Below, one piece after another: positions 2,307-46,359 of a stretch of 64,000 nucleotides of DNA. Within the stretch, counting starts at the first letter, position 1. Each line of letters begins with the position of its first letter. Made by a program: the position numbers and the translations under genes. Location: NCBI GenBank assembly GCA_030950375.1, contig JAUZRN010000017.1:1-64000 (forward strand), read 5' to 3'. This stretch comes from Rhodothermus sp. Its GTDB lineage: Bacteria > Bacteroidota > Rhodothermia > Rhodothermales > Rhodothermaceae. Under the pieces are notes generated by a model that searched no databases, had not been told where the DNA came from, and saw nothing but the letters and a program-made list of their open reading frames with translations.

Positions 2307-3746
2307 ATGCGCATGTGCTACACCCTGGGCACCTGGCTGCTCCTGCTTGCCACGCCGGTCCATGCCCAGACCTTCTTCTCGGCTATTTTGACACCGGAAC
2401 AGGCAACCGGCACAGTTACCAGCGACGGCTATGGCACAGCGGCCCTGGCCCTGACCGACGAAGGGTTGCAGTTCGTGATCACCGTCGATGGGCTGACGGG
2501 CCCCATCCAGGCCGCCCATTTTCATCAGGCCCCTGCTGGACAGGACGGTCCGGTCGTCCGCACCCTCACGTTCAACGGCAACACCGCCTCCGGCGTCTGG
2601 CGCCCGACCGACGCAGAGCCGTTGACCGACGAGCTGATCACAGCCCTGTTACTGGGGCACCTCTACATTAACATTCACACAGCCCAGTACCCAGCCGGTG
2701 AAATCCGCGGACAGGTCCGCCTCAGCAGCGGAACCGCCCTGCACGCCGACCTTACCCCCGATCAGGAAACCGACAACGTCACGAGCGCAGCACGTGGCAC
2801 GGCCTCGCTAACCCTTACCGGTGCCGGACTGGCTTACCAGGTCTCTGTAGAAGGCCTGACCGGTCCTATCCAGGCTGCCCACTTTCACTACGGTGCTGCT
2901 GGCGTGAGCGGACCGGTCGTGCACGGCATTACCTTTAGCAACAATACGGCGGCCGGCGTATGGACCGATTTACCGGATTCCCTTATCGTTGCGCTGCTGC
3001 TGGGCCGGCTCTACCTCAACATCCACACGGCCCAGTATCCGGCCGGCGAAATCCGCGGACAGGTATATCCGTCCAGCGGAGTCGGAGCCGTCGTTTCGCT
3101 CGACCCCATGCAGGAAACGGGCACGGTCACCAGCAACGGCCGGGGTACCGCATTTCTGGCGCTGACCGAAGCCGGGCTGGTCTTTCATATCACCGTAAGC
3201 GGGCTGACGGGCCCCATCCAGGCCGCCCACTTTCATCAAGCCCCTGCCGGACAGGACGGTCCAGTCGTTCGCACCCTCACGTTCGACGGTAACACTGCCT
3301 CCGGCGTCTGGCGCCCGACCGATGCAGAGCCGCTGACCGACGAGCTGATCCGTGAGCTGCTGGCCGGCAACATTTATCTCAACATCCACACGGCCCAGTA
3401 TCCGGCTGGCGAAATCCGCGGACAGATCCGCCCGGGCCAGCTTGTACTGACGGCAGTGAAATCGCTCACGGGCGAACTACCTGCTACGTTGACGTTGGCC
3501 CCGAACTATCCGAATCCTTTCCGCGATCGCACAACCATTACGTTCGCACTACCGCAGGCCACCCGAGCCACACTGACGGTTTATAACCTGCTGGGACAGC
3601 GCGTTGCGACGCTGGTGGATGGACTACTTCCGGCCGGCCACTACCAGGTCGTGTTCGATGCCGCCGACCTGCCAGCCGGTCTCTATCAGTACCGGCTCGA
3701 AACGCCTCACGGAAGCCTGAGCCGCACATTCATGCACTTGCGCTAA
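2307..3746 (+). CDS. Secreted triple-CHRD protein with type IX-style sorting domain
   Basis: A 479-residue exported protein. Residues 1-20 are a signal peptide ending in VHA. Three CHRD domains follow (about 22-137, 145-253 and 260-374), each with the core GLTGPIQAAHFH and the closing stretch NIHTAQYPAGEIRGQ. CHRD domains are beta-rich extracellular modules first described in chordin and common in bacterial secreted proteins. Residues 397-479 form a Por-secretion-type C-terminal domain: YPNPF, then VYNLLGQRV, then LPAGLYQYRL. This predicts export through the type IX system or surface anchoring. Domains 1 and 3 are nearly identical in DNA while domain 2 has diverged. The gene stands alone and is followed by a clear hairpin. 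Confidence 0.9.
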   Translation: MRMCYTLGTWLLLLATPVHAQTFFSAILTPEQATGTVTSDGYGTAALALTDEGLQFVITVDGLTGPIQAAHFHQAPAGQDGPVVRTLTFNGNTASGVWRPTDAEPLTDELITALLLGHLYINIHTAQYPAGEIRGQVRLSSGTALHADLTPDQETDNVTSAARGTASLTLTGAGLAYQVSVEGLTGPIQAAHFHYGAAGVSGPVVHGITFSNNTAAGVWTDLPDSLIVALLLGRLYLNIHTAQYPAGEIRGQVYPSSGVGAVVSLDPMQETGTVTSNGRGTAFLALTEAGLVFHITVSGLTGPIQAAHFHQAPAGQDGPVVRTLTFDGNTASGVWRPTDAEPLTDELIRELLAGNIYLNIHTAQYPAGEIRGQIRPGQLVLTAVKSLTGELPATLTLAPNYPNPFRDRTTITFALPQATRATLTVYNLLGQRVATLVDGLLPAGHYQVVFDAADLPAGLYQYRLETPHGSLSRTFMHLR

Positions 3747-3797
3747 GCTGCTTGCGCCGTTACTGCCTCCTGCACAATGCTTCAATGCTGATCACTG

Positions 3798-3826
3798 GCC
3801 TCCGATGCCTATGCATCGGGGGCTTT
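3798..3826 (+). terminator. Probable rho-independent terminator of the CHRD gene
   Basis: GCCTCCGATGC and GCATCGGGGGC form an 11-bp stem with one G-U pair around a 4-base loop. It is followed by TTT, about 50 bases after the CHRD stop codon. The T tract is short. Confidence 0.7.
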
Positions 3827-4180
3827 ACGTTTAAGCTTCTGAAGAGTAGAACCCCATCAATACCAGGGCGAACTTGATTCCTTCACTATGGAAAAGAACA
3901 TGTCAGGTTCAATACCAAGTAATTCTATGATCTCTCTGAGTAATTTCGTTTCATTTTTTGGAAATTCCAAAAAGCATCCTGCTGTACTATAGTGCGTTCG
4001 CTGCCATATCGTGATCAACAACACTGTCTTCGAAAATATCACCACCGTGGTACAGAAGAATCAGATACCAAAGTGGATGTCGGTAAAACATCCACGCTCG
4101 CAAATTCATCCTGTGGCGCAATTTAAATAGCGCCTATTAGCGTACGTCTGATCGGCCGTATTGCAGTTTTTTGGTGTTTC
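3827..4180. other. AT-rich intergenic stretch upstream of the coiled-coil operon
   Basis: The sequence is lower in GC than its neighbours. A 62-codon minus-strand frame at 3857-4045 contains the protein-like string KLLREIIELLGIEPD, but it has no family match that I recognise, so I do not call it as a gene. The segment just before 4181 must hold the promoter of the three-gene operon; I could not pick out a reliable motif. Confidence 0.4.
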
Positions 4181-5236
4181 ATGGAATTCAATGATCTTGG
4201 TATGATGGAACCGGAACGTTTGCTCCCAGCAGCGTTGCCCGAGCCTCAGGCGCTACCCCTGACCGAATCACCGGATTGGATCGCAGACGATGGCCTACTG
4301 CGTGACGAAGGAGTTATTGTGGGGCTTGCTCGGGGGAGCGATGCGTCCTCGGAAGATGAGGTTTCTCGATGGAAACTTGCAACAATCCGGGCTTATTACG
4401 AGGAACGTCGGGCACTGCTTAAGGCGCAACTGGAATCCGCGCGACAACGGTTGCGGCGACTCCAGGATGCCGAGGCAAGCTTGCACAAAGAGCTGACTCG
4501 GCACGAGGAGGCGTTGACTCTCCAGGACGAAATCGAAACCCGTTTGCCACTAACGGGCCGTAACCTGCTACTTGCTGGCACGCTGACGGTCGTCTGTGGG
4601 CTTACTCCTATCGTCCTGGCCACATTGCTACCTTCCGATCGCTTTGAATATCCTCTGACAACAGCTCTAGCGCTTAGCCTGTTTGGTATGTTTACCATAT
4701 TTCAAGGCCGCTCTCTTCTAGTAGCAGCCGACCTCCGACTATCCGGTACACCGGCACGACCAGAGCGCTGGAAACTCTATCTGGTGGAAGTACTACCCCC
4801 GCTTTCAGTGGCCTTACTGATGGCTCTATTCGTTTATCAATCTGAGGCGGGATGGGCTCCTTCTCTGATCGTTGGTTTTCTCGTGTTGCTATTACTACTG
4901 ATTCCAGGCCGTCTTCTGATGAGCCTCCTGGCCCGTGCTTTTCCTGAGCTGGCTGCGTGGTGGCGTCGGCTTTTGCACCACCGACGTCAGCGCCGGTACC
5001 ACCGCAAGGAGGCAGAAAGTATTCGTCAGCGCCTGCAGGAGCTAACATACCAGCGCAAACAGCTCGAAGACGAAACGATCCCACAAATCGAGTGCGAGCT
5101 GGCACCGCTGGAAGCTCGATGCCGCTATAAGGAAGCGCTCTTCCGTTCCGAAATGGAGCTGGCATGCCAGCGCAATCGTCTTTATGCGCAGTACAAAGAA
5201 AACGGCCAAATTCCTGGGCTGAAAACTTCCTCGTAA
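4181..5236 (+). CDS. Four-TM protein flanked by coiled coils (unknown function)
   Basis: The 351-residue product is not one I recognise. Its layout is clear: an acidic N-terminal 60 residues, a coiled coil at about 62-120 rich in Glu, Arg and Leu, two closely spaced membrane segments (127-150 and 156-176), a charged linker, two more (200-220 and 227-250), then a second long, very basic coiled coil (265-345). There is no signal peptide, so both coiled coils probably lie in the cytoplasm. The next gene, 17 bases downstream, has the same coiled coil-4 TM-coiled coil design, and a vWA lipoprotein completes the operon. Scaffold or sensor roles are possible, but that is only inference. Confidence 0.8.
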   Translation: MEFNDLGMMEPERLLPAALPEPQALPLTESPDWIADDGLLRDEGVIVGLARGSDASSEDEVSRWKLATIRAYYEERRALLKAQLESARQRLRRLQDAEASLHKELTRHEEALTLQDEIETRLPLTGRNLLLAGTLTVVCGLTPIVLATLLPSDRFEYPLTTALALSLFGMFTIFQGRSLLVAADLRLSGTPARPERWKLYLVEVLPPLSVALLMALFVYQSEAGWAPSLIVGFLVLLLLLIPGRLLMSLLARAFPELAAWWRRLLHHRRQRRYHRKEAESIRQRLQELTYQRKQLEDETIPQIECELAPLEARCRYKEALFRSEMELACQRNRLYAQYKENGQIPGLKTSS

Positions 5237-5253
5237 AAAAACAGCTACTCCCA

Positions 5254-6819
5254 ATGCGTTGGTCTTTTATTAGAAAGCTTTGGGCCCGCTTGACTTCCCA
5301 GCCGGAATCAGTTCCGTCGTCTTCCTTTGGAACGGACGTGTCTGACCCCCTCCAACCGCACCAGCAGGGACGCTATGATGGCGAACTTGCTGTCGAGCAA
5401 GAGGCTTTTTGCAAATTTGCAGCAGCGGCCACGAAGCGTGAGTATATCGAGGCACAGCTTGACGCGCTGCGCGCACAACACCAGCAGCTCCAGGAACAAC
5501 TACAGGAGGTCGAAGCTGCTCATAGCAACGCGCAAGCGCTACCCGAGCAGGTGCAAATGCTCGAGCGCAATAGACAAGAAACCCATCAGCGACTTGAACA
5601 GTGCAGGCAGCAGCAAAAGGAGTGCGAGCAACGTCTGGAAGTGCTGCGTCACTCGCCTGAAGCCCCCTCTCTGGCCCAGGTGTTCATATACGGGCTGGCG
5701 GGTGTTGCCTTTCTGGTAGGGGACATTATCGTGTCGAAAGAAATCGTGGCCCAGGTGCTCTACTTGCCCGAGGAATACGAACGCTGGCTGTTCGCGGTAG
5801 GACTGGCTGCCCTTACGTTTGTTTTTAAAATAACGTATGACCGACTGATAGAATTGGCCTTCTGGCAACGCATTAAGAAGCGTTTTGAACGCACCATTCT
5901 GACTATCTCAGCGCTGACGCTGGTCACCATCATCGTTATGGGTATTCTACGCGCACAGGAAATTCAGCTACAACAATCGCTTCGAAATCGTGACCAGACG
6001 GTCTGGTCGCTGGAGGCAAATGCGCCGTCAGCTCCGCAGCCAGTCACAGGCCCAAGTGGTTTCTTATTGGCGATAGCGTTTGCCCTGTCGGGGGTAATGT
6101 TTGCAGTCGCCGGGGCAGTCTGCTTCACCACAGCGCATTCGTACGGGCGTGTTTACTTTCATCAGTACCGCCCACTCCGACGGAAACACAAACGGCTTTT
6201 GAAGCAAGAGCGCAAAATTGCTCGCCATCTGAAAATGCTGGAAGAGCAGGTAAGCGACGCGAAAGAAGCGCTTGCTCGCGCCCAGAGTGTCCTGGAACTG
6301 CACGAAACACCGGAGGTCCTGCGACAGCATCTTCAGACCATCGAAGCACGCATTGCCGAACAGGAGAAAGAACGAAGCGAACTGCTAGCAGAACAGCGCC
6401 GATACAGCTACCTGAATGGCTGGTTACGAGGGCAACAGGACCAGCGTCTCCATATCGAACCGACCGTCCCGGAGGGACCTGACATAGACCACAACCCAGA
6501 CGACGACACCGGCACAACACCCGAGGCAAACGTGTCTTCGGAGGCAGGGCACATAGATCCCAACGGCACCGCTGATGACGTCTCCGAAGCAGCCGTATCT
6601 TCTCCTGCAGACGCATCGATCCTCCAGACCGACGGTGCAAACGCTCCGGAGGGCGACGGCAGCACCAGCTCCTTGCCACATACCCCGGCCGCCCAGACTG
6701 ACGATGAAAGTGCTGACAGACCAAATATCCCACGCAGTCGTCGGGAACGCGGTGTCCGACATGGACGGCGACGTCCTTTCCTGGATATTCGTGACGATAT
6801 TCTGGAACTGACCGCGTAA
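5254..6819 (+). CDS. Second four-TM coiled-coil protein with long acidic tail (unknown function)
   Basis: I start this at the ATG at 5254, after the stop of the previous gene; the frame extends further upstream only by overlapping that gene. The 521-residue product has a strong Gln/Glu-rich coiled coil (about 58-132), membrane segments near 139-165, 178-200, 213-233 and 268-292, and another coiled coil (305-385). A low-complexity acidic tail (about 400-490), rich in Asp, Pro, Ser and Thr, is followed by a basic patch SRRERGVRHGRRR and a short end DIRDDILELTA. The tail looks disordered, with a possible docking motif at the end. It parallels the upstream gene in topology but shows no obvious sequence identity. 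The vWA lipoprotein gene begins 6 bases after its stop. Confidence 0.8.
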   Translation: MRWSFIRKLWARLTSQPESVPSSSFGTDVSDPLQPHQQGRYDGELAVEQEAFCKFAAAATKREYIEAQLDALRAQHQQLQEQLQEVEAAHSNAQALPEQVQMLERNRQETHQRLEQCRQQQKECEQRLEVLRHSPEAPSLAQVFIYGLAGVAFLVGDIIVSKEIVAQVLYLPEEYERWLFAVGLAALTFVFKITYDRLIELAFWQRIKKRFERTILTISALTLVTIIVMGILRAQEIQLQQSLRNRDQTVWSLEANAPSAPQPVTGPSGFLLAIAFALSGVMFAVAGAVCFTTAHSYGRVYFHQYRPLRRKHKRLLKQERKIARHLKMLEEQVSDAKEALARAQSVLELHETPEVLRQHLQTIEARIAEQEKERSELLAEQRRYSYLNGWLRGQQDQRLHIEPTVPEGPDIDHNPDDDTGTTPEANVSSEAGHIDPNGTADDVSEAAVSSPADASILQTDGANAPEGDGSTSSLPHTPAAQTDDESADRPNIPRSRRERGVRHGRRRPFLDIRDDILELTA

Positions 6820-6825
6820 GCGCCT

Positions 6826-7647
6826 ATGCGTTGGTTCTTGTTGTTCTTGCTGGCCGTTGTACTGGCAGCCTGTAGTTCCGAAGCACAGCAAGACCCTCTG
6901 ACAGCCTGTGCCGAAGTGGAGCTGGCGCACCAGTCGCTTACTGGAGTACCACGTACAGCCCTGGTTTTTATCGACCGCAGCTCGAGCGCTGTAGCGTCCG
7001 AAGGGACTTACCGGGCCTTTGAGGAAGCGCTCCGACGATTGGTGACATCTATTATGCCTGTGCGTGGCGGGACGATTCACGCTTACTTTATCCACAGCCG
7101 CACGACAGGCAAGGCCGGGGGCCGCACCCTCGTGCAAGACGCCCCACCACCTCGCCTGTCGCCCTACGATTCAGAGCAACGGCAGGCCTGCCAACAGTAC
7201 GTTGCTGAAGTGCAGTACCGCATGCGTGCCGCCTACGATACCCTACGGGCCATGCTGCACGCTCGCACTGATAGCCGGGTCAGGGAGGCCACAGATCTGT
7301 GGGGCATCTTCGAGATAATCTCCGAGACATTGCTGACCTCCAGCGATATTCCCCAGACAACCGTGCTGGTGTTGAGCGACCTGCTCGAGTGTATGCCCGG
7401 CCCTGAGCGACGTTGCTTTGAGCAGCATCCCCCTGCCAGCCGACAACAGGCAGAATTATGGGGCCGCGCGGATGCTGAAAAGCTACGCCGGCAATATCGC
7501 ATCCGCCCTGAAGCACTCCAACGGGCCCACTACCTGTTTGTCTCGGGCGATTTTGCCAACCGAGAAATCTCCCGAAATGTACGCTATTACTGGCTGGCGC
7601 TTCTCGAAGCCCTGGGAGTTCCCTACCAACAGATCAGCATCCAGTAA
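6826..7647 (+). CDS. Lipoprotein with von Willebrand A-like domain
   Basis: A 273-residue protein with a signal sequence and lipobox LAAC (Cys16). The mature part has a vWA-like Rossmann core: ALVFIDRSSSAV gives a DxSxS MIDAS motif (Asp50, Ser52, Ser54), and TTVLVLSDLLEC near residue 180 supplies the later strand with an acidic residue typical of the fold. Four or more Cys in the mature part could form disulphides. In the family, MIDAS-bearing vWA domains bind a divalent ion and mediate protein-protein contacts. As the last gene of the operon it could act as an outer-leaflet or periplasmic partner of the two coiled-coil membrane proteins; this is inferred from position only. Confidence 0.75.
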   Translation: MRWFLLFLLAVVLAACSSEAQQDPLTACAEVELAHQSLTGVPRTALVFIDRSSSAVASEGTYRAFEEALRRLVTSIMPVRGGTIHAYFIHSRTTGKAGGRTLVQDAPPPRLSPYDSEQRQACQQYVAEVQYRMRAAYDTLRAMLHARTDSRVREATDLWGIFEIISETLLTSSDIPQTTVLVLSDLLECMPGPERRCFEQHPPASRQQAELWGRADAEKLRRQYRIRPEALQRAHYLFVSGDFANREISRNVRYYWLALLEALGVPYQQISIQ

Positions 7648-8343
7648 GTCCTACCCCGACAGCTTTCCTTGCCTCCCCATCTAACACTTAAGCAGGAAGT
7701 AAGCGCGCTACAACGAATAAGCAACCAGGCTACAACGGGTTCTATAATCCCCTCAGCGTATCTGGTGGTTGTGGCGACAAAACAGGGCCACAGCGGCCTG
7801 GCAAGCAGCGGGGAGCATTATGAATGCATTATGAAAAGACAGCGCTCAAGGTATCCCGATACAGCATGCCAGATAAACAACCGGCTGCTCCCCTGAAAGA
7901 CCGGAAAAGTAGAAAATGTCATGGTCATCTCTGTACAGGGGAATTCCAGGAAGCACACGTACCCGAACCCATTTTCTATGATCGCCTGCAATATCTCCCA
8001 CTTCGATCCAGTAGGCAGTACGGTAAGTGGAGCTAAGGGGACAGCCCAGGTGAAACCAGTTTCCCTCCTTCGTAGCAAAAAGGCCCAGACTTTTTGCATA
8101 GAGGCGAAATCCAATCCTTCCAGCCGGCCCGCTGTAGAAAACCACACCGGACCAGGCGCTATCTGGCAAGCTCCATGGCGTTGTGTTGTGGGATAGTAAC
8201 GTAACATACGCGGGCGACAGGAGATTCCGCTTCCATGACTGCGGCCTCCCCTCAGTGGCCTGAACGCTACCAGCGATACCATTTTCCGTCATAAGCCTCG
8301 GAAACGGCCGTAATGGTATGCCCCGAAAAAGCTGCCCGAACAA
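7648..8343 (-). other. Gene-poor stretch with possible decayed coding remnant
   Basis: No gene here is convincing. Two overlapping minus-strand frames (7818-8282 and 7846-8343) are open for about 155-165 codons, and one carries protein-like strings such as SGVVFYSGPAGRIGFRLYAK followed shortly by GNWFHLG. Neither has a recognisable domain or a good start, and protein-like character may switch between frames, which suggests a decayed gene. I would not annotate a functional product. Confidence 0.25.
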
Positions 8344-8355
8344 ACACCATGCGAG

Positions 8356-8418
8356 TGAGGATAGGCTTCAGTTTATCCTCAGGCCAGAAAGTATTTGCAT
8401 TTTGTTTTAGGATAAACT
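8356..8418. promoter_or_regulatory. Probable DtxR-family operator cluster upstream of the metal transporter operon
   Basis: Three copies of an AGGATA half-site lie just before the regulator gene. TGAGGATA (8356-8363) is the exact inverse of TATCCTCA (8374-8381), and AGTTTATCCT (8370-8379) is the exact inverse of AGGATAAACT (8409-8418). DtxR/MntR regulators typically bind such AT-flanked palindromes and repress their own operons when metal-loaded. The position, 37-100 bp before the start codon, fits autorepression. Confidence 0.55.
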
Positions 8419-8454
8419 AAATTATAGAAGCCTTAAAGCCAGATACCACCTAAA

Positions 8455-9111
8455 ATGCTATCCGAAGCACAGGAAGATTACCTGAAGCAGATTTTTTTGC
8501 TGGGCGAGGGAGAGCCTGTTTCCACGACGGCGCTGGCCGAGCGGTTAGGCGTCCGTCCGGCCTCGGTGACGGGCATGTTGCAGAAGCTGGCAGCGCTGGG
8601 GCTGGTAGAATATCGTCCGTACCAGGGGGCGCGACTGACCGAAGCCGGTCGCAAAATCGCCATTGAGCTGTTACGCCATCATCGGTTGATCGAGACGTTT
8701 CTGGCGGAGGCGCTGGGATACGACTGGCACGAGGTGCACGATGAGGCAGAGCGACTGGAGCACGTCATCAGTGAACAGTTTGAAGCCCGCATCGCAGAAT
8801 GGTTGGGGCATCCCGAGCGGGATCCCCATGGAGACCCGATTCCCCGGCCCGACCTTACGTTTCCTGCTCTTGAACCAGGACGTCCGCTGTTGCTATTACC
8901 GACAGGAGCCGTTGCACAGATCGTGCGGGTGCGGGCACAGGACCCCGACACGCTGAACCTGCTGGCCCGTCTGTCGCTGCGGCCAGGAACGCGCGTGCAT
9001 GTACTTGAACAGACGCCCCGGGGCGTCCGCGTTGCTGTGGGCCATGAGCGTTTTCTCCTTCCCCAAGAACTGGCTGAAGCGATATGGGTCGTTCAGGAAG
9101 TTATCTCCTGA
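8455..9111 (+). CDS. DtxR/MntR-family metal-dependent transcriptional repressor
   Basis: A 218-residue protein with the complete DtxR layout: N-terminal winged helix (about 5-64, with the recognition-helix segment RPASVTGMLQKL), a metal-binding and dimerisation helix region (about 65-130) containing HHRLIE and an Asp/Glu/His-rich helix around DEAERLEH, and a C-terminal SH3-like FeoA domain (about 145-215). Regulators of this family sense Mn(II) or Fe(II) and repress uptake genes. It is the first gene of an operon: its last 28 bases overlap the binding-protein gene. The inverted repeats upstream suggest that it controls its own expression. Whether the metal is Mn or Fe cannot be decided from sequence alone. 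Confidence 0.9.
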   Translation: MLSEAQEDYLKQIFLLGEGEPVSTTALAERLGVRPASVTGMLQKLAALGLVEYRPYQGARLTEAGRKIAIELLRHHRLIETFLAEALGYDWHEVHDEAERLEHVISEQFEARIAEWLGHPERDPHGDPIPRPDLTFPALEPGRPLLLLPTGAVAQIVRVRAQDPDTLNLLARLSLRPGTRVHVLEQTPRGVRVAVGHERFLLPQELAEAIWVVQEVIS

Positions 9112-10031
9112 CGTTTGGTCTGGGTAGCCTTCTATTGCTGCTGACCTCCTGTCAGGCCACGCCGCCTCGAGCAGATGGACGACTCCGCATTGTGGCCACC
9201 ACATCGATTGTGGCAGACCTGGCCCGTCAGCTGGGTGGCAATGCTGTGGACGTTGTCGCGCTGATGGGCCCCGGGATTGATCCGCATCTCTACCGCGCCA
9301 GTGAGGGCGACGTGGCGCGTATGCAGCGGGCCGATCTGGTGTTGTACAACGGGCTGCATCTGGAAGGCAAAATGGGAGAAGTTTTTGAGCGCATGCGGGT
9401 GCTGGGACGTCCGACGCTGGCCGTGGCCGAATGCGTGCCTGACAGCTTGCTCCTTCAGGCTTCCGGATACGGGGGCGTATACGACCCGCATGTGTGGATG
9501 GACGTGCGGCGCTGGCAATATGCTGCCCGTTGCGTAGCGGACATCCTCGCGCGTATGGATACGATGCGTGCTGCCTTCTATCGAAATCGGCTGAACGCCT
9601 ACCTGGCCGAACTGGAAGCCACCGACGCTTATGTACGCCGGCAATCGGCTACGCTACCATCGGATCGGCGCGTGCTGATCACCTCCCATGATGCCTTCCG
9701 ATATTTCGGGGATGCCTATGGATGGGAAGTGCACGGCCTGCTGGGCGTCTCAACAGCCACGGAAGCCGGTACGGCCGACGTGCAGGCGCTGGCCGAATTC
9801 ATTGTAGCCCGTCGTGTGCCGGCCATCTTCGTAGAAAGCTCCGTACCGGAGCGCTATCTGCGCGCGCTCCAAGAGGCGGTAGCTGCACGCGGCTTTTCGG
9901 TACGGCTGGCCGGCCCCCTTTACTCCGATGCACTCGGCGATCCGGATTCGCCAGCCGGCATCTATACAGGCATGATCCGCACCAACATCGACACCATTGT
10001 CGAAGCGCTTCGAAGTATTGCGACGCCATGA
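9084..10031 (+). CDS. Metal ABC transporter substrate-binding lipoprotein (TroA/MntC-like)
   Basis: A 315-residue cluster A-I solute-binding protein. The signal sequence ends in a lipobox LTSC (Cys23). Metal ligands typical of the family are visible: His68 in DPHLY, His136 in DPHVW, His202 in SHDAF and an acidic residue near 282 (YSDALG). There is no His-rich loop of the kind found in zinc-specific ZnuA, and the sequence ESSVPERY resembles Mn/Fe-type members. I favour Mn(II) or Fe(II) uptake over Zn(II). It overlaps the regulator gene by 28 bases and the ATPase gene by 4 (ATGA), so the genes are translationally coupled. Confidence 0.9.
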
Positions 10032-10774
10032 GTTGGGCTATTGAAATCGAAGATCTGACTGTTGCCTATCAGCAGCAGCCGGTGCTCTGGGATGTTGATG
10101 TGGTGATTCCGTCTGGTCAGATGACGGCCATCGTAGGCCCCAACGGCGCCGGCAAGAGCACGCTGCTAAAGGCGGTGCTGGGCATTGTGCGTCCGGCCGC
10201 CGGACGCATTCGGGTACTGGGCCGTCCGTTTCGTGCTCAGGAACGTCGGGTAGCGTACGTACCTCAGCGGGCTGATTTGGACTGGGACTTCCCGGCTACT
10301 GTGTTTGATGTGGCGTTAATGGGCACCTATGGACGTGTGGGCTGGCTGCGACGTCCCGGTGCGGCTGAACGCGCCCGGGCGCGCACTGCACTGGAGCGTG
10401 TCGGCATGACCGACCTGGCCGACCGTCCAATTGGCCAGCTCTCCGGGGGGCAGCAACAGCGCGTGCTGCTGGCCCGTGCGCTGGCACAAGAAGCAGACGT
10501 TTATCTGCTCGACGAACCCTTTCAAGGGGTCGATGCCCCCACGGAAGCGACGTTACTCGAGGTGCTGCGTTGGCTCAAGCGACAGGGTAAAACCATTGTG
10601 GTGGTACACCACGATCTGTCCACCGTGGCTGAATACTTCGACTGGGTGGTGCTCCTGAATGTCCAGTGTATTGCCTGTGGACCGGTAAGCGAAACTTTCA
10701 CTTCGGACAATCTGCGACGCACGTATGGAGGTCGTATGGTGACGCCGGTGCTGTCCACCATAACCTCTGCATAG
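10028..10774 (+). CDS. Metal ABC transporter ATP-binding protein
   Basis: A 248-residue ABC ATPase with Walker [10 protein letters not shown] (37-45), Q-loop VPQRADLDW, signature LSGGQQQRV (138-146), Walker [13 protein letters not shown] (158-169) and switch His in VVHHDLS. The sequence and neighbours place it with the TroB/MntB/ZnuC type that energises metal import. I chose the ATG at 10028, which overlaps the stop of the binding-protein gene as ATGA. It would couple to the two permeases encoded immediately downstream. Confidence 0.93.
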
Positions 10775-10776
10775 CC

Positions 10777-11838
10777 ATGGATTTCACGCTGCGCATTGTA
10801 ATGACCGGCGCTGCCCTGCTGGGGCTGATCTCCGGGTCACTGGGTACCCTGGCGGTACTCCGACGACAGGGCTTGATTGGCGACGCAGTAGCCCACGCAG
10901 CATTACCGGGCATCGTACTGGCCTTTCTGATCAGCGGCTCAAAAGCATCGGTCATCCTTCAGCTTGGAGCAGCAATCAGCGGGACGCTGGCCATGCTATG
11001 GGTACAGAGCGTACTGCACACTACACACATTCGCTTTGATGCGGCGCTGGGAATGGCCCTGGCTGTGTTTTTTGGTCTGGGAGTGGTACTGCTTTCGGCT
11101 GCGCAACATACAGCCGGCGCCGCACAGGCAGGGCTGGATCGTTTTCTGTTTGGCCAGGCTGCCACGCTGCTCCAGGAAGACCTGCTGGCCATGGCCGTCA
11201 CTGGCGCGCTGGCCCTTGGACTGGTGCTGGTCTTCTGGAAAGAAATAAAGCTGGTTCTGTTCGATGAAGCCTATGCCGCGGCACTGGGACTTCCAGTACG
11301 ATGGCTGCAGACCCTGCTGATTATCCTGCTGGTGGTGGCCATTGTAATTGGCTTGCAGACGGTAGGCGTCGTACTCATGATTGCTGTGATCGTTGCCCCG
11401 GCTGCGGCGGCCCGGCAATGGAGCAGTCGCTACGGCCGCGTGTTGCTACTGGCCGGTCTATTCGGCCTACTGAGCGGAGCCCTGGGCGCCTGGATCAGTA
11501 ATCTGGCGCCTCGCCTGCCTACTGGTCCCATCATCGTGCTCTTGCTTACCGTACTGGTTCTGCTGTCAGTACTGATTGCACCAGCACGCGGCCTGCTCTG
11601 GCAACGTTACCGGCGTCGGCGCGCTCGCACAACGGCCCAGCAAGCTGTTGTAGCCGTTCTCCAGGAACTGGCACACCACCATCCTCAAGATCATCCACAT
11701 CCTACCGCCACCATTCAAGCAGCCCTGGGGGGCAACGTCCCGGTTGAAGCCATTCTGCGCGACCTGGAGCGTCGAGGCAAAGTACAGCATAAGCCTGGTC
11801 AGGGCTGGCACCTTACCAATCCGCCGCATACACCATGA
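10777..11838 (+). CDS. Metal ABC transporter permease with C-terminal winged-helix-like tail (1)
   Basis: The start ATG at 10777 lies 2 bases after the ATPase stop. Residues 1-270 form the ABC-3 permease core with about eight membrane segments; AVAHAALPGIVLAF and VGVVLMIAVIVAPAAAA are family hallmarks. Residues about 284-348 are an unusual soluble addition: a His-rich stretch (ELAHHHPQDHPHPT) and then a helix-helix-strand pattern (VEAILRDLERRGKVQHKPGQ) like a small winged helix. It could be a metal-responsive regulatory tail on the cytoplasmic side. The following permease has a similar tail, and the two genes overlap by 4 bases. Confidence 0.88.
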   Translation: MDFTLRIVMTGAALLGLISGSLGTLAVLRRQGLIGDAVAHAALPGIVLAFLISGSKASVILQLGAAISGTLAMLWVQSVLHTTHIRFDAALGMALAVFFGLGVVLLSAAQHTAGAAQAGLDRFLFGQAATLLQEDLLAMAVTGALALGLVLVFWKEIKLVLFDEAYAAALGLPVRWLQTLLIILLVVAIVIGLQTVGVVLMIAVIVAPAAAARQWSSRYGRVLLLAGLFGLLSGALGAWISNLAPRLPTGPIIVLLLTVLVLLSVLIAPARGLLWQRYRRRRARTTAQQAVVAVLQELAHHHPQDHPHPTATIQAALGGNVPVEAILRDLERRGKVQHKPGQGWHLTNPPHTP

Positions 11839-12962
11839 GTCCTGCGCTGGAAATCCTGCTGGTAGCTGTTCTGACGGCGGCCGCCTGTGCGCTGCCCGGT
11901 GCCTTTCTGGTGCTCCGCCGCATGAGTCTGGTCAGCGACGCTATCAGCCACGCTGTCCTGCCCGGCATTGTAATAGGCTTCTTTCTCACCGAAAACCTGC
12001 AACACCCCCTGCTGCTCATACTGGCCGGTGCCTCAGGCCTGCTTACCGTCTACCTGATTGAGCTGCTGGAGAAAACCGGCCGCTTGCGGGAAGATGCTGC
12101 CATTGGATTGGTTTTTCCCGCACTGTTTAGCATAGGGGTGTTGCTCATTGCCCGATTTGCCGGACAGGTGCATCTGGATACCGATGCCGTGCTGCTGGGC
12201 GAGCTGGCTTTCGTGCCGTTTGATCGCCTTCAGTGGCGGGGCATCGATCTGGGGCCTCGTGCCCTCTGGACCATGAGCAGCCTGCTTCTGCTCAATGCCC
12301 TCCTACTCTGGTTGCTTTATAAGGAGATGACGCTTGCGACATTCGATGCAGCCGCAGCGGCGGTACTGGGCTTTCGTCCGACGCTGCTACACTACCTGCT
12401 GATGGGCCTTGTAGCTGTAACGGTAGTTGCTGCCTTTCACGCCGTAGGCGCTATTCTGGTCATCGCGCTGATGATTGGGCCGCCGGCCACCGCTTTGCTC
12501 CTGGCCCGCCGCATGCCCACCTACCTCCTGCTCAGCCTGCTGATCGGCGCGTTGAGTGCCCTGCCTGGTTATGGCATGGCGCGTGTGCTGGACGTATCCA
12601 TCGCCGGATCCATGGCTACTATGGTGGGTGTGCTATTCAGCCTGGTCTGGCTATTGGCTCCGGAAACAGGACTGCTGGCCCGATGGCATCGCCACCGTCG
12701 GCAACAAACAGATTTTGCACTGGACCTGCTTTTGCTGCATCTGCTGCATCATGAACATCAACCCACCGCTACGGCCGAGCGCCATCAGGCCACTTTACCC
12801 ACCCACCTGAACTGGACGAACGAGCGCCTCAATGCGATTTTAGCAGAAGGCCAACGGAGAGGCTGGCTCCAGCTCAAAGGATCCGAGGTGCATCTTACCC
12901 CGGCGGGACGTGCTCGGGCTTCCCGGCTCGTCGAAACACTCGCTCCTGCACGACTACACTAA
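11835..12962 (+). CDS. Metal ABC transporter permease with C-terminal winged-helix-like tail (2)
   Basis: A 375-residue paralogue of the preceding permease. The ABC-3 core (about 1-280) shows SDAISHAVLPGIVIGFF and GAILVIALMIGPPATA. Residues about 292-370 again carry a His-containing helix (LLLHLLHHEHQPT) followed by a winged-helix-like segment (NERLNAILAEGQRRGWLQL, then LTPAGRARA). Two different permeases suggest a heterodimeric channel, as in the mntBCD/troCD type. It is the last gene of the operon; no clear terminator follows. Confidence 0.88.
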   Translation: MSPALEILLVAVLTAAACALPGAFLVLRRMSLVSDAISHAVLPGIVIGFFLTENLQHPLLLILAGASGLLTVYLIELLEKTGRLREDAAIGLVFPALFSIGVLLIARFAGQVHLDTDAVLLGELAFVPFDRLQWRGIDLGPRALWTMSSLLLLNALLLWLLYKEMTLATFDAAAAAVLGFRPTLLHYLLMGLVAVTVVAAFHAVGAILVIALMIGPPATALLLARRMPTYLLLSLLIGALSALPGYGMARVLDVSIAGSMATMVGVLFSLVWLLAPETGLLARWHRHRRQQTDFALDLLLLHLLHHEHQPTATAERHQATLPTHLNWTNERLNAILAEGQRRGWLQLKGSEVHLTPAGRARASRLVETLAPARLH

Positions 12963-13810
12963 TGACTCATGCGCGCTTTGCCCACTTCTTCAAGCGATGC
13001 ATTTAGCATTGAATACTGAGATCCGTCCTGAGATAATGCCATCATTCCCAGCAGCACATCTGCAAATCCGCAGCTGCCATGGCCTCGTGCAGGTACTCGC
13101 AGGCCCGCGTCATCGATGGATCGCTCCCGATAGTCCACATAGACCCCCAGGGTAACTCATCGTAGCCGCTGGACATTTCGAGAGATTCCGGCCGTAAGAG
13201 CATACAGCGACACGTCCACCACACATCCCCGGTTACGCCAAACGCCATAGCAGTAAACCCAGTTACGGACAACACGTGAAGCTGCTGTTCATGGAAGTAG
13301 CTGTGAAGTCAAAACAGTATGACAGGCGATCAAAGTGGGAGGGGCTCCAATAAATTGAGCCCCAAGCGTCTCCATGCGTCCTCTATCCTTAGAGCTATGC
13401 AGCCAGATTTGCTGGCTTTTAGCTCTTCCTTCTTCACAGCCTCCCACAAGTTCTCACAAGTTCTTTTTCATACGTGGTCAAAAACAGCGGCTCATTTACC
13501 TCACCGCTCGTGATTCATTGACCTGATCTATCCCTCGTTCACGCACATATCAATTCCCAGATACACTGGCCTCAAAGTAGACAAAGCTCATCTTCGCTCT
13601 GGCACAATGAGACAGGATGCAGGCTGCAACTGAATTATCTCTGCTCTCTTCAACCCAAGGAGCTTTTGCTCGATAAGGGTTTCTGGAGCCTCTACCCACA
13701 TTGGGGTAGCTGCTACATATATTGCACCAATACGCGGTTCGCCCTGTGCTGGCGCCGCCTGTCCCGACCTTCTGGCCATTGTTTGGATCCAGCAGACAGA
13801 ATTGTAAGGC
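12963..13810. other. Long gene-poor stretch with two hairpins
   Basis: About 850 bases without a convincing gene. Minus-strand frames around 13042-13275 contain protein-like fragments in two different frames (for example SLYALTAGISRNVQR), as in a decayed gene. Two strong hairpins occur: GGGGCTC/GAGCCCC (13341-13363) and a nested stem, AGAGCTA/TAGCTCT enclosing GCCAG/CTGGC (13391-13426), followed by a pyrimidine-rich tract. A small RNA is possible, but nothing known is recognisable. Confidence 0.35.
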
Positions 13811-17068: not shown

Positions 17069-19015
17069 CTATACGTCGAGCGCCTCGGCATCCACCTGCG
17101 CCGCATTTTCCATGATAAACCGAAAGCGCGCCGAGACATCGCGGCCCATCAGCTCCGAGATGGTCTGTTCGGTCTGTAGACGGGCGTCTTCTGGGATCTC
17201 GACGCGCAGCAGGCGACGTTTTCGAGGATCCAGTGTGGTTTCGCGCAGCGTGTCGGGCATCATCTCGCCCAGTCCCTTGAAGCGCTGAATTTCCACCTGG
17301 AGATTCTTACGCTTCTGGTGGAGCTCCTGCAGGATGCGGTCACGGTCGGCATCATCCAGTGCCCAGTAAGTTTCGCGTCCTGCCACAATCCGATACAGCG
17401 GTGGCTGGGCAATGTACACGTGACCGTTCTCAATGAGAGGGCGCATGTAACGATAGAAAAACGTAAGCAATAGTGTAGTGATATGATGACCGTCCGAGTC
17501 GGCATCCATCAGCAGGATGACTTTATGATAGCGCAGGCGCGACAGGTCCAGTTTTTCCCCGATACCACATCCCAGGGCCTGCACAATATTTGACAGCTCT
17601 TTGTTTTCTTCGACCTTACGAAGCGAGGCCTGTTCGGCATTCAGCACCTTGCCGCGCAGCGGCAGCACCGCCTGGAAGCGTCGGTCACGTGCCTGCTTGG
17701 CACTTCCTCCAGCCGAATCGCCTTCTACGATAAACAGCTCACATGCTTCTGGATTCGTCGAGGTGCAGTCTGCGAGTTTGCCCGGTAGATTCAGCCGATG
17801 GCTGACCGAAGTCTGACGGCGGGCAGAGCGAGCGGCAGCTCGGCTGGCCAGACGTGCTTTGGCAGCCTGAATGATGCGAGCTACGATGGCTTCCGCCACT
17901 GTCGGATGGGCGTTCAGGAACTGCTCCAGATCCAGCCGCACGGCCCCGATCACCAGCGACCGTGCCTCGGGATTATTCAGCTTTTCTTTAGTCTGTCCCT
18001 GGAACTGCGGTTCTACCATGAACAGGTTGACAATCGCCACCAGCCCCTCGCGAATGTCATCGGCCGTTACTTCCAGATTGCGGGGCAGTAGATCGTGCGT
18101 CTCCATATAGGCGCGCACAGCACTTCGTACAGCCTCTTTGAAACCTTGCTCGTGCGTGCCGCCTTCGGTGGTGGGGATGCCATTGACAAACGACCGGATC
18201 AGCTCACGTGGTGCTTCGGTCCACTGCAGGGCTACCTCCAGACGGGCCCCATCGCGCAACGCCTCCTGAATCAATACAAACGGCTCAGGGTGCACGACAC
18301 GCGCGCCCTGCTCCTCGACCAGTCGGGCCAGGTATTCTACGATCCCGCCTTCGTGCTGAAATTCGTAGCGTCCCCCGCTTGTCTCATCCCTGAAGATGAT
18401 CTTCAGGTTGCGGTTCAGGTAGGTTTTGATCTCCAGGTGCTCCCGGATCCAGGCGGGATCGAATTCGGTGGTTTCAAAAATCTCCGGGTCCGGACGAAAA
18501 TAAATGCTGGTGCCCGTCCCCCGCGTGTTTCGGGCGATCACTTTCAGCTTCGTCTTCGGCTTACCCCGTACGAAACGTTGCTGGTAGGTCTTACCATCGC
18601 GCCGTACCGTAGCGATCAGCTCCTCTGAGAGGGCATTCACTACCGAAGCGCCCACGCCGTGCAAGCCACCCGAGGTGATGTAATTTTTCCGGTCAAACTT
18701 TCCGCCGGCATGTAGCGTCGTCAGAATCAGCTCCAGCGTGGGGATTTTTTTGATCGGATGCGGATCGACAGGAATGCCTCGTCCATTATCCGTTACTGTG
18801 ACACTGCGACCATCCGCGTGCAGCGTTACCTCAATCAGTGAAGCAAAGCCATTGACGGCCTCATCCACCGCATTGTCGACAATCTCCCAGAGCAGGTGAT
18901 GCAAGCCGGGCTTGCCGGTACCTCCAATATACATGCCCGGTCGCTTGCGTACCGGCTCCAAGCCTTCCAGTACCTGAATATCTCTGCCCGTATAGGCTGC
19001 CGTAATCTCTGCCAT
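17069..19015 (-). CDS. parE: DNA topoisomerase IV subunit B (ParE)
   Basis: A 648-residue type IIA topoisomerase ATPase subunit. The GHKL ATPase shows DNAVDEA, DNGRGIPVD and GGLHGVGASVVNALS; the Toprim domain has EGDSAGGSAKQARDR and LLMDADSDGHH. The lack of the long GyrB insertion and the wording EGDSAGGSAKQARDRRFQA favour ParE over GyrB. It lies 12 bases downstream of the matching A subunit, so the two are co-transcribed. Together they would decatenate daughter chromosomes. A second gyrase-like role cannot be excluded without seeing the rest of the genome. Confidence 0.88.
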   Translation of the reverse strand: MAEITAAYTGRDIQVLEGLEPVRKRPGMYIGGTGKPGLHHLLWEIVDNAVDEAVNGFASLIEVTLHADGRSVTVTDNGRGIPVDPHPIKKIPTLELILTTLHAGGKFDRKNYITSGGLHGVGASVVNALSEELIATVRRDGKTYQQRFVRGKPKTKLKVIARNTRGTGTSIYFRPDPEIFETTEFDPAWIREHLEIKTYLNRNLKIIFRDETSGGRYEFQHEGGIVEYLARLVEEQGARVVHPEPFVLIQEALRDGARLEVALQWTEAPRELIRSFVNGIPTTEGGTHEQGFKEAVRSAVRAYMETHDLLPRNLEVTADDIREGLVAIVNLFMVEPQFQGQTKEKLNNPEARSLVIGAVRLDLEQFLNAHPTVAEAIVARIIQAAKARLASRAAARSARRQTSVSHRLNLPGKLADCTSTNPEACELFIVEGDSAGGSAKQARDRRFQAVLPLRGKVLNAEQASLRKVEENKELSNIVQALGCGIGEKLDLSRLRYHKVILLMDADSDGHHITTLLLTFFYRYMRPLIENGHVYIAQPPLYRIVAGRETYWALDDADRDRILQELHQKRKNLQVEIQRFKGLGEMMPDTLRETTLDPRKRRLLRVEIPEDARLQTEQTISELMGRDVSARFRFIMENAAQVDAEALDV

Positions 19016-42216: not shown

Positions 42217-45200
42217 TTACACACCGACCAGCTCAAAGCGCGATCCTTCAACCGGATCTTTCTCGACTTCGATACGCACCGGGAACACCTGCTTGAGCTC
42301 GCTAAGATGCGTAATTACAAGAATCTTATCAAAATCGGATTGCACGGCCTGGATCGCTTCGACCAGCAATTGAAGTCCCTGAGGATCCTGCGTACCAAAG
42401 CCTTCGTCGATGACCAGCGTACGCACGCGCACGCCGCTGCGTTCAGCCAGAAGCTGCGCCAGGGCCAACCGTAGCGCAAAGTCAACCCGAAAGGCTTCCC
42501 CTCCTGAAAAGGTTTCGTAGGGCCGAGCGGCTCCCTGCTCATCGGTGATAATGATATCCAGGGTCTCTTTGGTCCCCCCGGACTTTGTCGTTCGCTGCGT
42601 CCGCAGATAGACATGCATGCGGCCATCAGTAAGCCGCTCCAGTAGCTCATTGGCACGCGCTTCCAGCTCGGGTAGCGTTTGCTCGATAATCAGCGAAGGG
42701 ATCCCGTGTTTTCCAAAGGCCTGCTGCAGATACCGATGCAGGCGCTCGCGATGCCGCACCGCCTTCAACTCCTGCTGGAGCTGCGTGTGTTGCGCACGAA
42801 GCGTCTGCAACTGCTCCAGACGCGCCTGGCATTCACCAAGCTGCTGCTGCACCGCACGTAGTGCCTGCTCCGAAGCCTCAAGCTGCTGCTGGGCGGCTTC
42901 GAAGGCCGTCTGCACTTCCGGCCAGGTCTTCAATTCCTGCTCCAATCGCTCCGCCTGCTGACGCAGCCGCGTCAAGGTTTCTGTTTCCTGAGCAATGCGC
43001 CGCTGCAGCGCTTCCCGATCCTGATGTCCTTTAGCCAGATGCTCCCGAGCGTGCAGCAGGCGATGTAACTGGACGCTGACATCGCCCAGCGCTTCCAACT
43101 CCTGCTGCACCTGCTGCAGGCGCGTCGGATCGAAGCCAATCTGTTGCAATTTCTCCTGCAGTTCCTGGATACGCTGCTGCAGGCTCCGCATTGCGTCTCC
43201 CTGATCCAGCTCGTGCCGATAACGCTGCTCCAACCGCTCCAGGCGTTGTTGCTCATTCTCCAGGCTTTCGCGCTGTCCCTGGAGCATCTCCAGTTCCTCC
43301 AGCCGTTCACGCAGCGACGTGGCTTCGGCCGCACGCTGCCGCAACGTTTCAAGTCGTGCTTCATCAAACGGTATTGCCTCCAGCTGCCGATGCAGCGCTT
43401 CCAGCCGTTGCCGATGCGACTGTCCAAAATTGCGAGCTTCAAGTCGTGCTTTCAGTGCGGCCGTCTGGCGTTCCAGTTCTTCCAGCTTTGCTTTACGTTG
43501 TCGCAGCTCTTCCAACTGGGCCTTCCGGGCGGCCAGTTGCTCCGGCACCTGCGATCGCTGCTCTACTTCGTGCTGCTGTTTCCGATACTGCTTACGGAGT
43601 TGCTCCAGCTGTTGCTGCTGCTCGACAAGCTGGCGACGCCCTTCGGACAGCAGACGCTCCAGCTCCTGCAGCTGCTCCTGATAGTGTCGTTCCACCTCTT
43701 GTCGGTGCTCTGGCTCCAGCGTACTGCCGCACACCGGACAAACATCCGCCTCAGCCTGTAAAAACGTGGTGTAGCGTTGCTGCAGCTCTTGTTGCTGTCG
43801 CTCCAGTTCCTGCAGGCGGACCTGCAACCCTTCGATTTCCTGTCGCTTCCTCGTACCGGCCTCTTTTAACTGTTCCAGCTCTTCCCGCAGCTGTCGATAG
43901 CGCGTCACTTCCTGTTCCAGGACCCTGCAGGAAGCCTCCAGCTCCGCCAGCTTTGCGGGCACCTCAGCCTCCTGCTCCAGCTGACGCCGCAGGGAGTCCA
44001 GCTGTCCTTCCAGCTGTTTCTGCTCGGACAGCAGCGCCTCGGACACCTTACGGATTTCTTCCTCAAGCGCCCTGCGCTGCTGTCGCCGCTCTTCCAGCTG
44101 ATTTAGCTCCTTTTGGGCCTGCAGAGCCGTCCGTAACCGCTCTTCCAGCGTCGGACGCTCCCGCAGGCGTGCTGCCAGCTCCTGCAGCCGTCGCTGCACA
44201 TGTTCGCGCTCCTTGCGGGTCAGCTCCAGCTTCTTCTCCAGCTCAGCCCGCAGCCGGTCGCGATCGGCCTTGATCTGGTCCAGCTGTTTCTGCACGCCCC
44301 AGTACTGATCGCGCCTGGTTTCCAGCAGGCGCCGTTCTTCCTGCAACGCCTGGTAGCGTTTATAGGCCTGTTCGATCTCCTCACGTCGTTCCAGTAGTTG
44401 CTCCAGATCCTGCAACTCGGCCTCCAACCCGGCCAGCCGTTCGCGTTCCTCCTGAAGGCGTGCCACCTGCAGCCGTTCCGCTTCACGTAGTTCTTCAAGA
44501 CGCTGCTGGGCTTCCTCCAGACGTACCCGCCGCTCCTGCAATCTATCTCGTTGTTGGCGCCGCTGGTCGCATTCGGCCTCCAGGGCACGTTGCTGCGCCA
44601 GTAAGGCGCTGTGCTGTGTTTTCAGTGCAGGTTCCTCTTGCAGGGCTTCCTGGATCTGCGTGATTTGCCGTTCAAGTTGCTCGGCACGTGCTTTTGCTTC
44701 CCGCACCTCTTCACGCGCCAGCTCTGCCAGCCGCTCATAGCGGTCCAGGTTCAGGATCCGGGCCAGGATCTCTTTTCGTTCGCCTGGTTTTTTGCGGGTA
44801 AACTCGTTCGCCCGTCCCTGCAACAGGAAGGAAGCATTGATGAAGGTCTGATAGTCAATCCCCAGCAGTTGATTGAGGCGGCGCTGCGTTTCGCTCACTG
44901 AGCTACCTGTAAGTGGCCGATAGGCTCCGGTCTCAGGCTCATACACCTGAAGCTCCAGCTCCGATCTGCTGGTCTTTCCCGAACTGGAGCGCGTGTAGCG
45001 ACGCAGTACGCGATAGCGCTGGCCTTCGAGATCGAAGGTAAACTCCACCTCCATCTGGTGAGCCCCCACACGCAGCAGATGCTCGTCGGGTTTGCGACTG
45101 TCACTTGTCTTGCGCGCTTCCCCCCAGAGTGCCCAGGTAATCGCATCCAGCAGTGCCGACTTGCCCTGACCGTTGTTGCCCGACAGACAGGCTACCTGAA

Positions 45201-45276
45201 ACTGTTGAAAGTCGAGCACAGGCGCGGCTTCTCCATAGCTCATGAAGTTCTTCAGTCGCAGCGCTACCGGTACCAT
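42217..45276 (-). CDS. sbcC: DNA double-strand-break repair ATPase SbcC (Rad50-like)
   Basis: A 1019-residue SMC-like protein. Walker A GNNGQGKSALLDAITWALWG is at residue 33; two very long Gln/Glu/Arg-rich coiled coils flank a zinc hook CPVCGSTLEP near residue 513. The C-terminal ATPase half has the signature FSGGEAFRVDFALRLALAQ and Walker B LVIDEGFGTQD. With the nuclease SbcD it processes DNA ends and hairpins. No sbcD is adjacent: the upstream neighbour on this strand is the CDF gene. Confidence 0.93.
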   Translation of the reverse strand: MVPVALRLKNFMSYGEAAPVLDFQQFQVACLSGNNGQGKSALLDAITWALWGEARKTSDSRKPDEHLLRVGAHQMEVEFTFDLEGQRYRVLRRYTRSSSGKTSRSELELQVYEPETGAYRPLTGSSVSETQRRLNQLLGIDYQTFINASFLLQGRANEFTRKKPGERKEILARILNLDRYERLAELAREEVREAKARAEQLERQITQIQEALQEEPALKTQHSALLAQQRALEAECDQRRQQRDRLQERRVRLEEAQQRLEELREAERLQVARLQEERERLAGLEAELQDLEQLLERREEIEQAYKRYQALQEERRLLETRRDQYWGVQKQLDQIKADRDRLRAELEKKLELTRKEREHVQRRLQELAARLRERPTLEERLRTALQAQKELNQLEERRQQRRALEEEIRKVSEALLSEQKQLEGQLDSLRRQLEQEAEVPAKLAELEASCRVLEQEVTRYRQLREELEQLKEAGTRKRQEIEGLQVRLQELERQQQELQQRYTTFLQAEADVCPVCGSTLEPEHRQEVERHYQEQLQELERLLSEGRRQLVEQQQQLEQLRKQYRKQQHEVEQRSQVPEQLAARKAQLEELRQRKAKLEELERQTAALKARLEARNFGQSHRQRLEALHRQLEAIPFDEARLETLRQRAAEATSLRERLEELEMLQGQRESLENEQQRLERLEQRYRHELDQGDAMRSLQQRIQELQEKLQQIGFDPTRLQQVQQELEALGDVSVQLHRLLHAREHLAKGHQDREALQRRIAQETETLTRLRQQAERLEQELKTWPEVQTAFEAAQQQLEASEQALRAVQQQLGECQARLEQLQTLRAQHTQLQQELKAVRHRERLHRYLQQAFGKHGIPSLIIEQTLPELEARANELLERLTDGRMHVYLRTQRTTKSGGTKETLDIIITDEQGAARPYETFSGGEAFRVDFALRLALAQLLAERSGVRVRTLVIDEGFGTQDPQGLQLLVEAIQAVQSDFDKILVITHLSELKQVFPVRIEVEKDPVEGSRFELVGV

Positions 45277-45342
45277 CGCTGTCCCCTCGGTCTGGTGTTT
45301 TGCTCAAATTACAATAAATAACTGCCTGTCGCGCTCCGGCAC

Positions 45343-46293
45343 CTACCGTTTCATGCGGGTTGTCAGCGGATCTGTAGGTTCCTGATGGCCGACGGGATGG
45401 GCCTGCTCGTGATGTTCGGGTTCCAGGTGGGCCGTCACATAGACGCGTCGCTCAGGGAAAGAGGCTTGAATGGCTTCCTCTACCTGATGCGCCCGCGCAT
45501 GCGCTTCGTCCAGGGTCTTTTCGCCGGGAAGCATCAGGTGATATTCCACCCAGAGCTGATCCCCTGTACGGCGATGCCGGAGCTGGTGGTAGTCGGAGAT
45601 AATGCCCTGCCGGACGGCCTCATCAAGCACGCTTACCAGTTGTCGCGTATCCTCTTCGTCAACGCGTTCCATCAAGCCGGCCACGGCCTGCCTCAGGAGC
45701 TTGAAGGCCGTCCGCAGAATGTTAAGCGCGATGATGATCGCAACAAGCGGATCCAACCAGCGCAGGTCGGTCCAGGCCACCAGCGCCACACCAGCCACCA
45801 CGCCCACGCTGGTCCACATGTCCGTGAGCACATGGCGTCCGTTTGCTTCCAGCACGAGGCTATGATGCCGCCGTCCCACCCGGATCAGGTAAAGCCCCAA
45901 CAGCAGGTTGATCAGGCTAAAAAGCGCGGTCAGTAGTACCCCCAGTCCCAGCCGCCGCAATGCTGCCCCATGCAGCAGGTCCTGCACTGCCGTATACAGG
46001 ATGCCAACGGCGGCCAGCAGAATCATTGCCCCTTCAAAGCCGGCCGAAAAGTAAGCAATCTTGCCGTGGCCATAGGGGTGATTCAGGTCGGGAGGCTGCA
46101 GCGCATACCAGAGGCTGAAGGCGACAAAGGCCGTCGCCAGCATGTGCACCAACGACTCAGCGGCATCCGAGAAAATGGCAGCACTTCCTGTAAGTAGATA
46201 GGCTGCAAACTTTCCGACAAGCATCAACGCCGATACCACCAGGCTGGCAACCATCGCCCGGTGACGCGGATCGCGTAAATCAGGCCATTGCAT
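45343..46293 (-). CDS. Cation diffusion facilitator (CDF) metal efflux protein
   Basis: A 316-residue transporter; I start at the ATG at 46293 because the further upstream TTG has little support. About six membrane segments are followed by a C-terminal cytoplasmic metallochaperone-like domain. The metal-site residues are in FSDAAESLVHML (segment II) and HPYGHGK, and TDMWTSVGVVAGVAL (segment V). It exports divalent ions such as Zn(II), Fe(II) or Mn(II) against protons. A His-rich C-terminus (EPEHHEQAHPVGHQEP) could bind metal. The upstream neighbour, uvrC, is divergent. Confidence 0.9.
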   Translation of the reverse strand: MQWPDLRDPRHRAMVASLVVSALMLVGKFAAYLLTGSAAIFSDAAESLVHMLATAFVAFSLWYALQPPDLNHPYGHGKIAYFSAGFEGAMILLAAVGILYTAVQDLLHGAALRRLGLGVLLTALFSLINLLLGLYLIRVGRRHHSLVLEANGRHVLTDMWTSVGVVAGVALVAWTDLRWLDPLVAIIIALNILRTAFKLLRQAVAGLMERVDEEDTRQLVSVLDEAVRQGIISDYHQLRHRRTGDQLWVEYHLMLPGEKTLDEAHARAHQVEEAIQASFPERRVYVTAHLEPEHHEQAHPVGHQEPTDPLTTRMKR

Positions 46294-46359
46294 GTGCCTA
46301 TTGCCCAACGCGTATGACGACGCGTCTACAGAACGCCCGTCCGGCCACTTCGTGCCCGC

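Follow-up and report, generated by a model that had tools for sequence, protein, structure and literature searches.

The trio and its insertion site

The window, that is the whole stretch of 64,000 nucleotides of Rhodothermus sp. analysed here, carries three consecutive genes on the plus strand, designated P1 (4181-5236), P2 (5254-6819) and P3 (6826-7647) and together referred to as the trio. P1 and P2 are separated by 17 bp, P2 and P3 by 6 bp. Re-reading of the window confirmed these coordinates, the strand and both gaps as given in the original prediction, which had been made from the sequence letters and which described an operon of two coiled-coil membrane proteins and a vWA lipoprotein in a combination not known before. 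No member of the trio fits a family in Pfam, NCBIfam, PADLOC or PHROGs, and the claim of an undescribed combination is upheld to that extent.

Comparison with congeners placed the trio on a segment of about 4.5 kb (3750-8394), flanked by a CHRD gene that ends at position 3746 and by the region upstream of an mntR-like gene. In four congeneric genomes (G001, G002, G003 and G004), the CHRD and mntR-like genes are adjacent, with less than about 200 bp and no trio between them. The segment is missing from the equivalent site in all four, as expected of the accessory locus that had been proposed. G002 and G004 do possess trios, which sit at other places, that of G004 on a 125-kb contig having the size of plasmid pRMAR01. 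The sequence upstream of P1 is indeed AT-rich (44% GC in 3750-4180 versus 57.6% for the window). The downstream stretch (7648-8394), taken earlier for a decayed one, matches nothing of any kind, hence decay is unsupported; a decayed gene was rejected here, the ORFs in 7818-8343 being without Pfam, plasmid or tblastx match. One ORF of 165 aa on the minus strand downstream of the trio (7846-8343) has no match in Pfam, in plasmids or in the compared loci. The CHRD gene itself (2307-3746), kept at the same site in congeners, encodes three CHRD domains and, at the C-terminus, a secretion-sorting domain, and contains internal repeats of about 80% identity.

The vWA lipoprotein P3

P3 (273 aa; 6826-7647) displays a vWA fold. 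Its AF2 model is of good quality (pLDDT 78, pTM 0.77), the best Foldseek matches of this model are nearly all vWA domains, and in the fold comparison VIA reached Z 11.6 (162 residues, 3.1 A). On the sequence level, the VWA_2 profile of Pfam was reached by just one of ten P3 family members, with an E value of 0.032 that does not pass the cut-off. Since no curated VWA profile passes its cut-off, P3 belongs to vWA proteins at fold level only. Its profile matched no solved structure by sequence, and no credible family was found for it in Pfam, NCBIfam, PADLOC or PHROGs.

A signal peptide and the lipobox LAAC, whose cysteine (Cys16; 6871-6873) is invariant in 40 aligned sequences, indicate that P3 is a bacterial lipoprotein, lipidation being predicted. 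The DxSxS motif, present as DRSSS (D50, S52 and S54; 6973-6987), is accompanied by T156 (7291-7293) and D185 (7378-7380). In the 40 sequences, D50, S54, T156 and D185 are conserved at 97-100% and position 52 is S or T, so the MIDAS is complete and is predicted to bind metal. The original description of P3 as a vWA-type lipoprotein with a DxSxS motif therefore agrees with lipobox, motif and fold model. Further conserved residues are H90, T93, K96, W159, R196, P203, W212, D216 and Y255-W256.

The vWA fold and the complete MIDAS are common to P3 and to such proteins as INTS14, Rpn10, Ku80 and the pilus tip protein PitA. P3 differs from them in sequence (about 10% identity), in its own invariant residues H90, T93, K96 and Y255-W256, and in being a predicted lipoprotein. 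A vWA lipoprotein serving an envelope machine is CglB, the adhesin of Myxococcus gliding and a part of the Glt/Agl machine; we liken it to P3 as a lead only, and that machine is not known to have a pair resembling P1 and P2.

The membrane proteins P1 and P2

Hydropathy agrees with the earlier claim of four TM segments in two pairs for both membrane proteins: residues 129-147, 163-181, 200-218 and 229-247 of P1 (351 aa; 4181-5236) and residues 143-161, 178-196, 214-232 and 271-289 of P2 (521 aa; 5254-6819). In both, the loop between TM2 and TM3 is positively charged (4 K/R versus 2 D/E in P1, 6 K/R versus 2 D/E in P2) and the remaining two loops are not. By the positive-inside rule, both ends of P1 and of P2 would be cytosolic (N-in/C-in), those of P1 being helical.

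Coiled coils had been proposed for both proteins, and this proved firm for P2 only. Heptad-like periodicity of P2 is significant in residues 48-132 (6/500 shuffles) and 300-349 (3/500 shuffles), and AF2 predicts long confident helices in these coiled-coil regions. The periodicity of P1 is not significant (227/500 and 292/500 shuffles). P2 thus comprises a coiled-coil helix (47-132), the TM part, C-terminal helices (300-349 and 353-400), a disordered linker and a C-terminal motif, although the AF2 model as a whole is poor (pLDDT 66, pTM 0.44) and its TM part is of low confidence.

Similarity of the two layouts without sequence identity was noted previously, and our comparison bears this out. 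P1 and P2 were considered as paralogues and this was rejected, because their profile match of about 94% probability comes from the coiled-coil regions; a profile comparison restricted to the TM parts revealed no detectable homology (score 15.4, block-shuffled controls up to 21.4). P1 has no family match in Pfam or PADLOC. Weak matches of P2 are to SMC- or Rad50-type coiled coils, none of them credible in Pfam, NCBIfam, PADLOC or PHROGs, and a fold search with the P2 model gave generic coiled coils only, none with E below 0.001.

Conservation is found on both predicted sides of the membrane. In the cytosolic part of P1, the motif W33-G48 (4277-4324) contains W33, D42, E43 and G48, invariant in 26 sequences. 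Cytosolic conservation in P2 concerns G39/G43 and the C-terminal motif R507-P508...R513 (6772-6792), located behind the disordered linker. Conservation of these three elements suggests a soluble cytosolic partner. On the opposite side, P2 contains a TM1-loop-TM2 region (5680-5841) whose loop is, judging by charge and hydropathy, predicted to be periplasmic. G156, D157, S161, W178 and K192 of P2 are invariant, two of them, D157 (5722-5724) in TM1 and K192 (5827-5829) in TM2, forming a possible buried ion pair.

Classically, a MIDAS domain coordinates an acidic side chain of the protein to which it binds, as is established for integrins. Position 176 of P2 (E176; 5779-5781), predicted to be periplasmic, is acidic in 28 of 28 sequences and is followed two residues later by the invariant W178. 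E176 is the best candidate for a P2 ligand of the P3 MIDAS, with E163, closer to the TM1 end and conserved nearly as well, as an alternative.

An envelope-spanning complex, with the vWA lipoprotein docked on P1 and P2 as membrane scaffolds, was suggested originally. Because the predicted ends are cytosolic and the predicted periplasmic loops only short, we consider it more likely that P1 and P2 make up a complex of the inner membrane and have a partner in the periplasm than that they form a truly envelope-spanning structure.

Co-occurrence of the three families

Relatives were sought mainly within Bacteroidota. Among 99 relatives, P1 is present in five genomes and P2 and P3 in an identical set of six, distributed sporadically in Rhodothermales. 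In a phylum-wide sample of 394 genomes, P2 (strong matches) and P3 occur in exactly the same eight; the corresponding Fisher p of about 7e-17 ignores shared ancestry and is given for scale only. Weak P2 matches in another four genomes (G022, G039, G182 and G402; E 1e-4 to 1e-3, less than 100 residues) were rejected as coiled-coil noise. A scan of contigs with short patterns yielded three loci and missed the large-genome family described below.

Three of the eight genomes belong to one large-genome Bacteroidota family (f49), in which both genes proved to be near-core. P2 is found there in 128 of the 150 genomes and in 30 of the 36 genera, nearly always in a single copy, and P3 in 127 genomes and 29 genera. 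Both are present in 126 genomes, P2 only in two, P3 only in one and neither in 21. All mismatches come from incomplete assemblies (G479, 87% complete; G513, 71%; G574, 90%). Six genera lack both genes and most double absences fall into one small-genome genus. In the three genomes of this family examined for gene position, P3 is unlinked from P1-P2, and family-wide tables likewise place it at different positions. Physical linkage therefore cannot account for the co-occurrence of P2 and P3. P1, whose presence in the family was judged from 23 loci, adjoins P2 at 22 of them.

As for gene order, P1-P2-P3 is found in the genome of the window (G000), in the R. marinus-type genomes G002 and G004, and in G015 and G043, and is constant across Rhodothermales. 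G095 carries P2-P3 without P1 on a complete contig of 37.6 kb, hence P1 may be dispensable. A metagenomic locus (L046) also has P2-P3, but its contig stops within P2, which leaves P1 not assessable. The genes thus behave as the conserved set that was anticipated; the opposite outcome was sought as well, and neither a lack of co-occurrence elsewhere nor a relationship with unrelated housekeeping families was encountered. Very probably, P1, P2 and P3 form one functional unit. That the three genes are unrelated neighbours without joint function is extremely improbable, given the conserved order and the co-occurrence of P2 and P3 despite their separation.

Association with type III CRISPR loci

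On plasmids pRMAR01 and pRHOM17201 of R. marinus, a CARF-HEPN gene (csx2/Csx1) comes 3 bp after the trio, and csm6, cas6, cas2 and cas1 are located beyond it; upstream of the trio lie csm1-5, a ring nuclease gene and CRISPR repeats (type III-A). Among trio loci, a neighbouring CARF-HEPN gene is seen in R. marinus only. The trio copy of G002 adjoins csm genes. In G043, representing a second lineage, a trio of proteins about 30% identical stands directly upstream of type III-D cas10-Csx10-Cas7 on the same strand. In the genome of the window, csm1-5, a ring nuclease gene and a CRISPR array are present on a separate contig (C23), unlinked to the trio, and cas1 was not detected anywhere in the assembly. 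In the 44000-61727 portion of C23 (L058), the type III-A set and the array occupy 6026-13215 and 17302-17717, the array being at the contig end. Neither these CRISPR neighbours nor the near-core status in the large-genome family, where the vWA gene is on its own, figured in the original prediction, since both emerge only from relatives.

These neighbourhoods raise the possibility that the trio is an ancillary membrane effector of type III CRISPR, in which the CARF protein or a cyclic oligoadenylate would trigger a disturbance of the membrane by P1-P2. Retention of GGDD in all three Cas10 proteins is consistent with it, as is the type III-A set in the genome of the window. Nevertheless, five genomes carrying P2 and P3 (G015, G095, G273, G323 and G429) contain no RAMP (type III) genes, the near-core trio genes of the large-genome family do not adjoin CRISPR genes, and the trio of the window itself is apart from its csm genes. 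In addition, no CARF, SAVED, Csx23 or CorA sensor domain was detected by PADLOC and Pfam in any trio protein. We consider such an effector role rather unlikely. Type III CRISPR is a recurrent, non-obligatory neighbour of the trio.

The trio was also compared with systems described from such loci. Known membrane effectors of type III CRISPR are Cam1, Csx23, CorA, Cam2 and Cam3, and each of Cam1 and Csx23 has a fused soluble domain with which it binds cA4 (PMC11229360). The trio resembles them in comprising membrane proteins whose genes lie, in R. marinus and G043, within type III loci, and differs from Cam1 and Csx23 in that no cA4-binding soluble domain was detected; vWA, lipoprotein and coiled are not mentioned in the text of that paper. 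Ternary vWA-MoxR-VMAP modules also occur near type III CRISPR and are, like the trio, multi-gene units with a vWA protein (PMC10910872). The partners of vWA in these modules are MoxR and VMAP, whereas the trio contains no ATPase gene and combines its vWA lipoprotein with two TM proteins. The composition of the trio matches neither the described membrane effectors nor these modules, and a literature search on the combination and on the R. marinus accessions turned up no such system. The fold and the site of P3 are the familiar part; the combination of three proteins appears to be undescribed.

Discussion

The reading we prefer, to which we assign a probability of about one half, is that P1, P2 and P3 constitute one undescribed inner-membrane complex in which the MIDAS of P3 acts from the periplasm, and that this complex has an envelope role and has been reused beside type III CRISPR. 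P1 and P2, each with four membrane passes and cytosolic ends, would form the membrane part and the long helices of P2 a cytosolic platform. P3 would be lipid-anchored in a membrane on the periplasmic side, its metal site gripping an acidic residue of the P1-P2 complex, most likely E176 of P2. Binding or release of P3 might shift the state of P1-P2, which in turn could be relayed to cytosolic partners recognising the conserved terminal motifs. Since the trio is near-core in the large-genome Bacteroidota family, its basic role there may be an envelope or cell-surface function, and in Rhodothermales the trio would have spread into accessory loci, type III CRISPR loci among them.

A bolder possibility joins this complex to immunity. 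In Rhodothermales, type III immunity could have recruited the conserved Bacteroidota envelope complex as a membrane effector of several components. Its switch in R. marinus would be the CARF protein encoded directly behind the trio, and gating by vWA would set it apart from known effectors. We regard this as speculative and rather unlikely.

The trio might instead act on its own against phages or in abortive infection, and meet type III CRISPR by chance in the defence regions and plasmids where it gathers. Sporadic occurrence in Rhodothermales, location on plasmids in R. marinus and the insertion at a site empty in congeners would all suit such a system. Near-core, nearly always single-copy presence in 128 of 150 genomes of one family would, on the other hand, be unusual for it. 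Neither PADLOC (PADLOC-DB 2.0.0) nor PHROGs offers a match beyond the coiled-coil noise of P2, and no relatives were found among phages or viral contigs, which also led us to reject a phage or viral origin. We find a stand-alone defence function unlikely.

Alternatively, P1-P2 could be a mechanosensitive or ligand-gated channel controlling cell volume or envelope tension, with P3 as its periplasmic regulator. Charged residues (D157 and K192) invariant in TM1 and TM2 of P2 fit a channel, and there is precedent for the regulation of a membrane protein by a vWA domain. However, no credible channel match of P1 or P2 was obtained by sequence or by fold, and the low confidence of the P2 TM model also weighs against this proposal, which we consider doubtful.

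By a co-occurrence that survives separation of the genes, three unannotated families can be tied into one machine. Three unknowns thereby merge into a single object that can be tested, down to one particular predicted contact. A functional type III link would give CRISPR immunity a membrane arm of several components; without such a link, our results point to a putative envelope complex that is near-core in a large family of Bacteroidota.

Other neighbouring genes

In the large-genome family, P1-P2 is often immediately preceded by a conserved unknown gene (HOLD; L041 11634-12374, L042 6152-6922), which sometimes adjoins a purA-like gene. HOLD was rejected as a fourth component, being missing at about half of the P1-P2 loci of this family. 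P2-P3 of G095 lies next to a gas-vesicle cluster and to PAS-domain genes (L026, 143-8462 and 9026-11333). This cluster encodes GvpF/L, an AAA ATPase, two gas-vesicle structural proteins, an ArsA-type ATPase and GvpG. PAS-like genes downstream of P2-P3 are common to G095 and the metagenomic locus.
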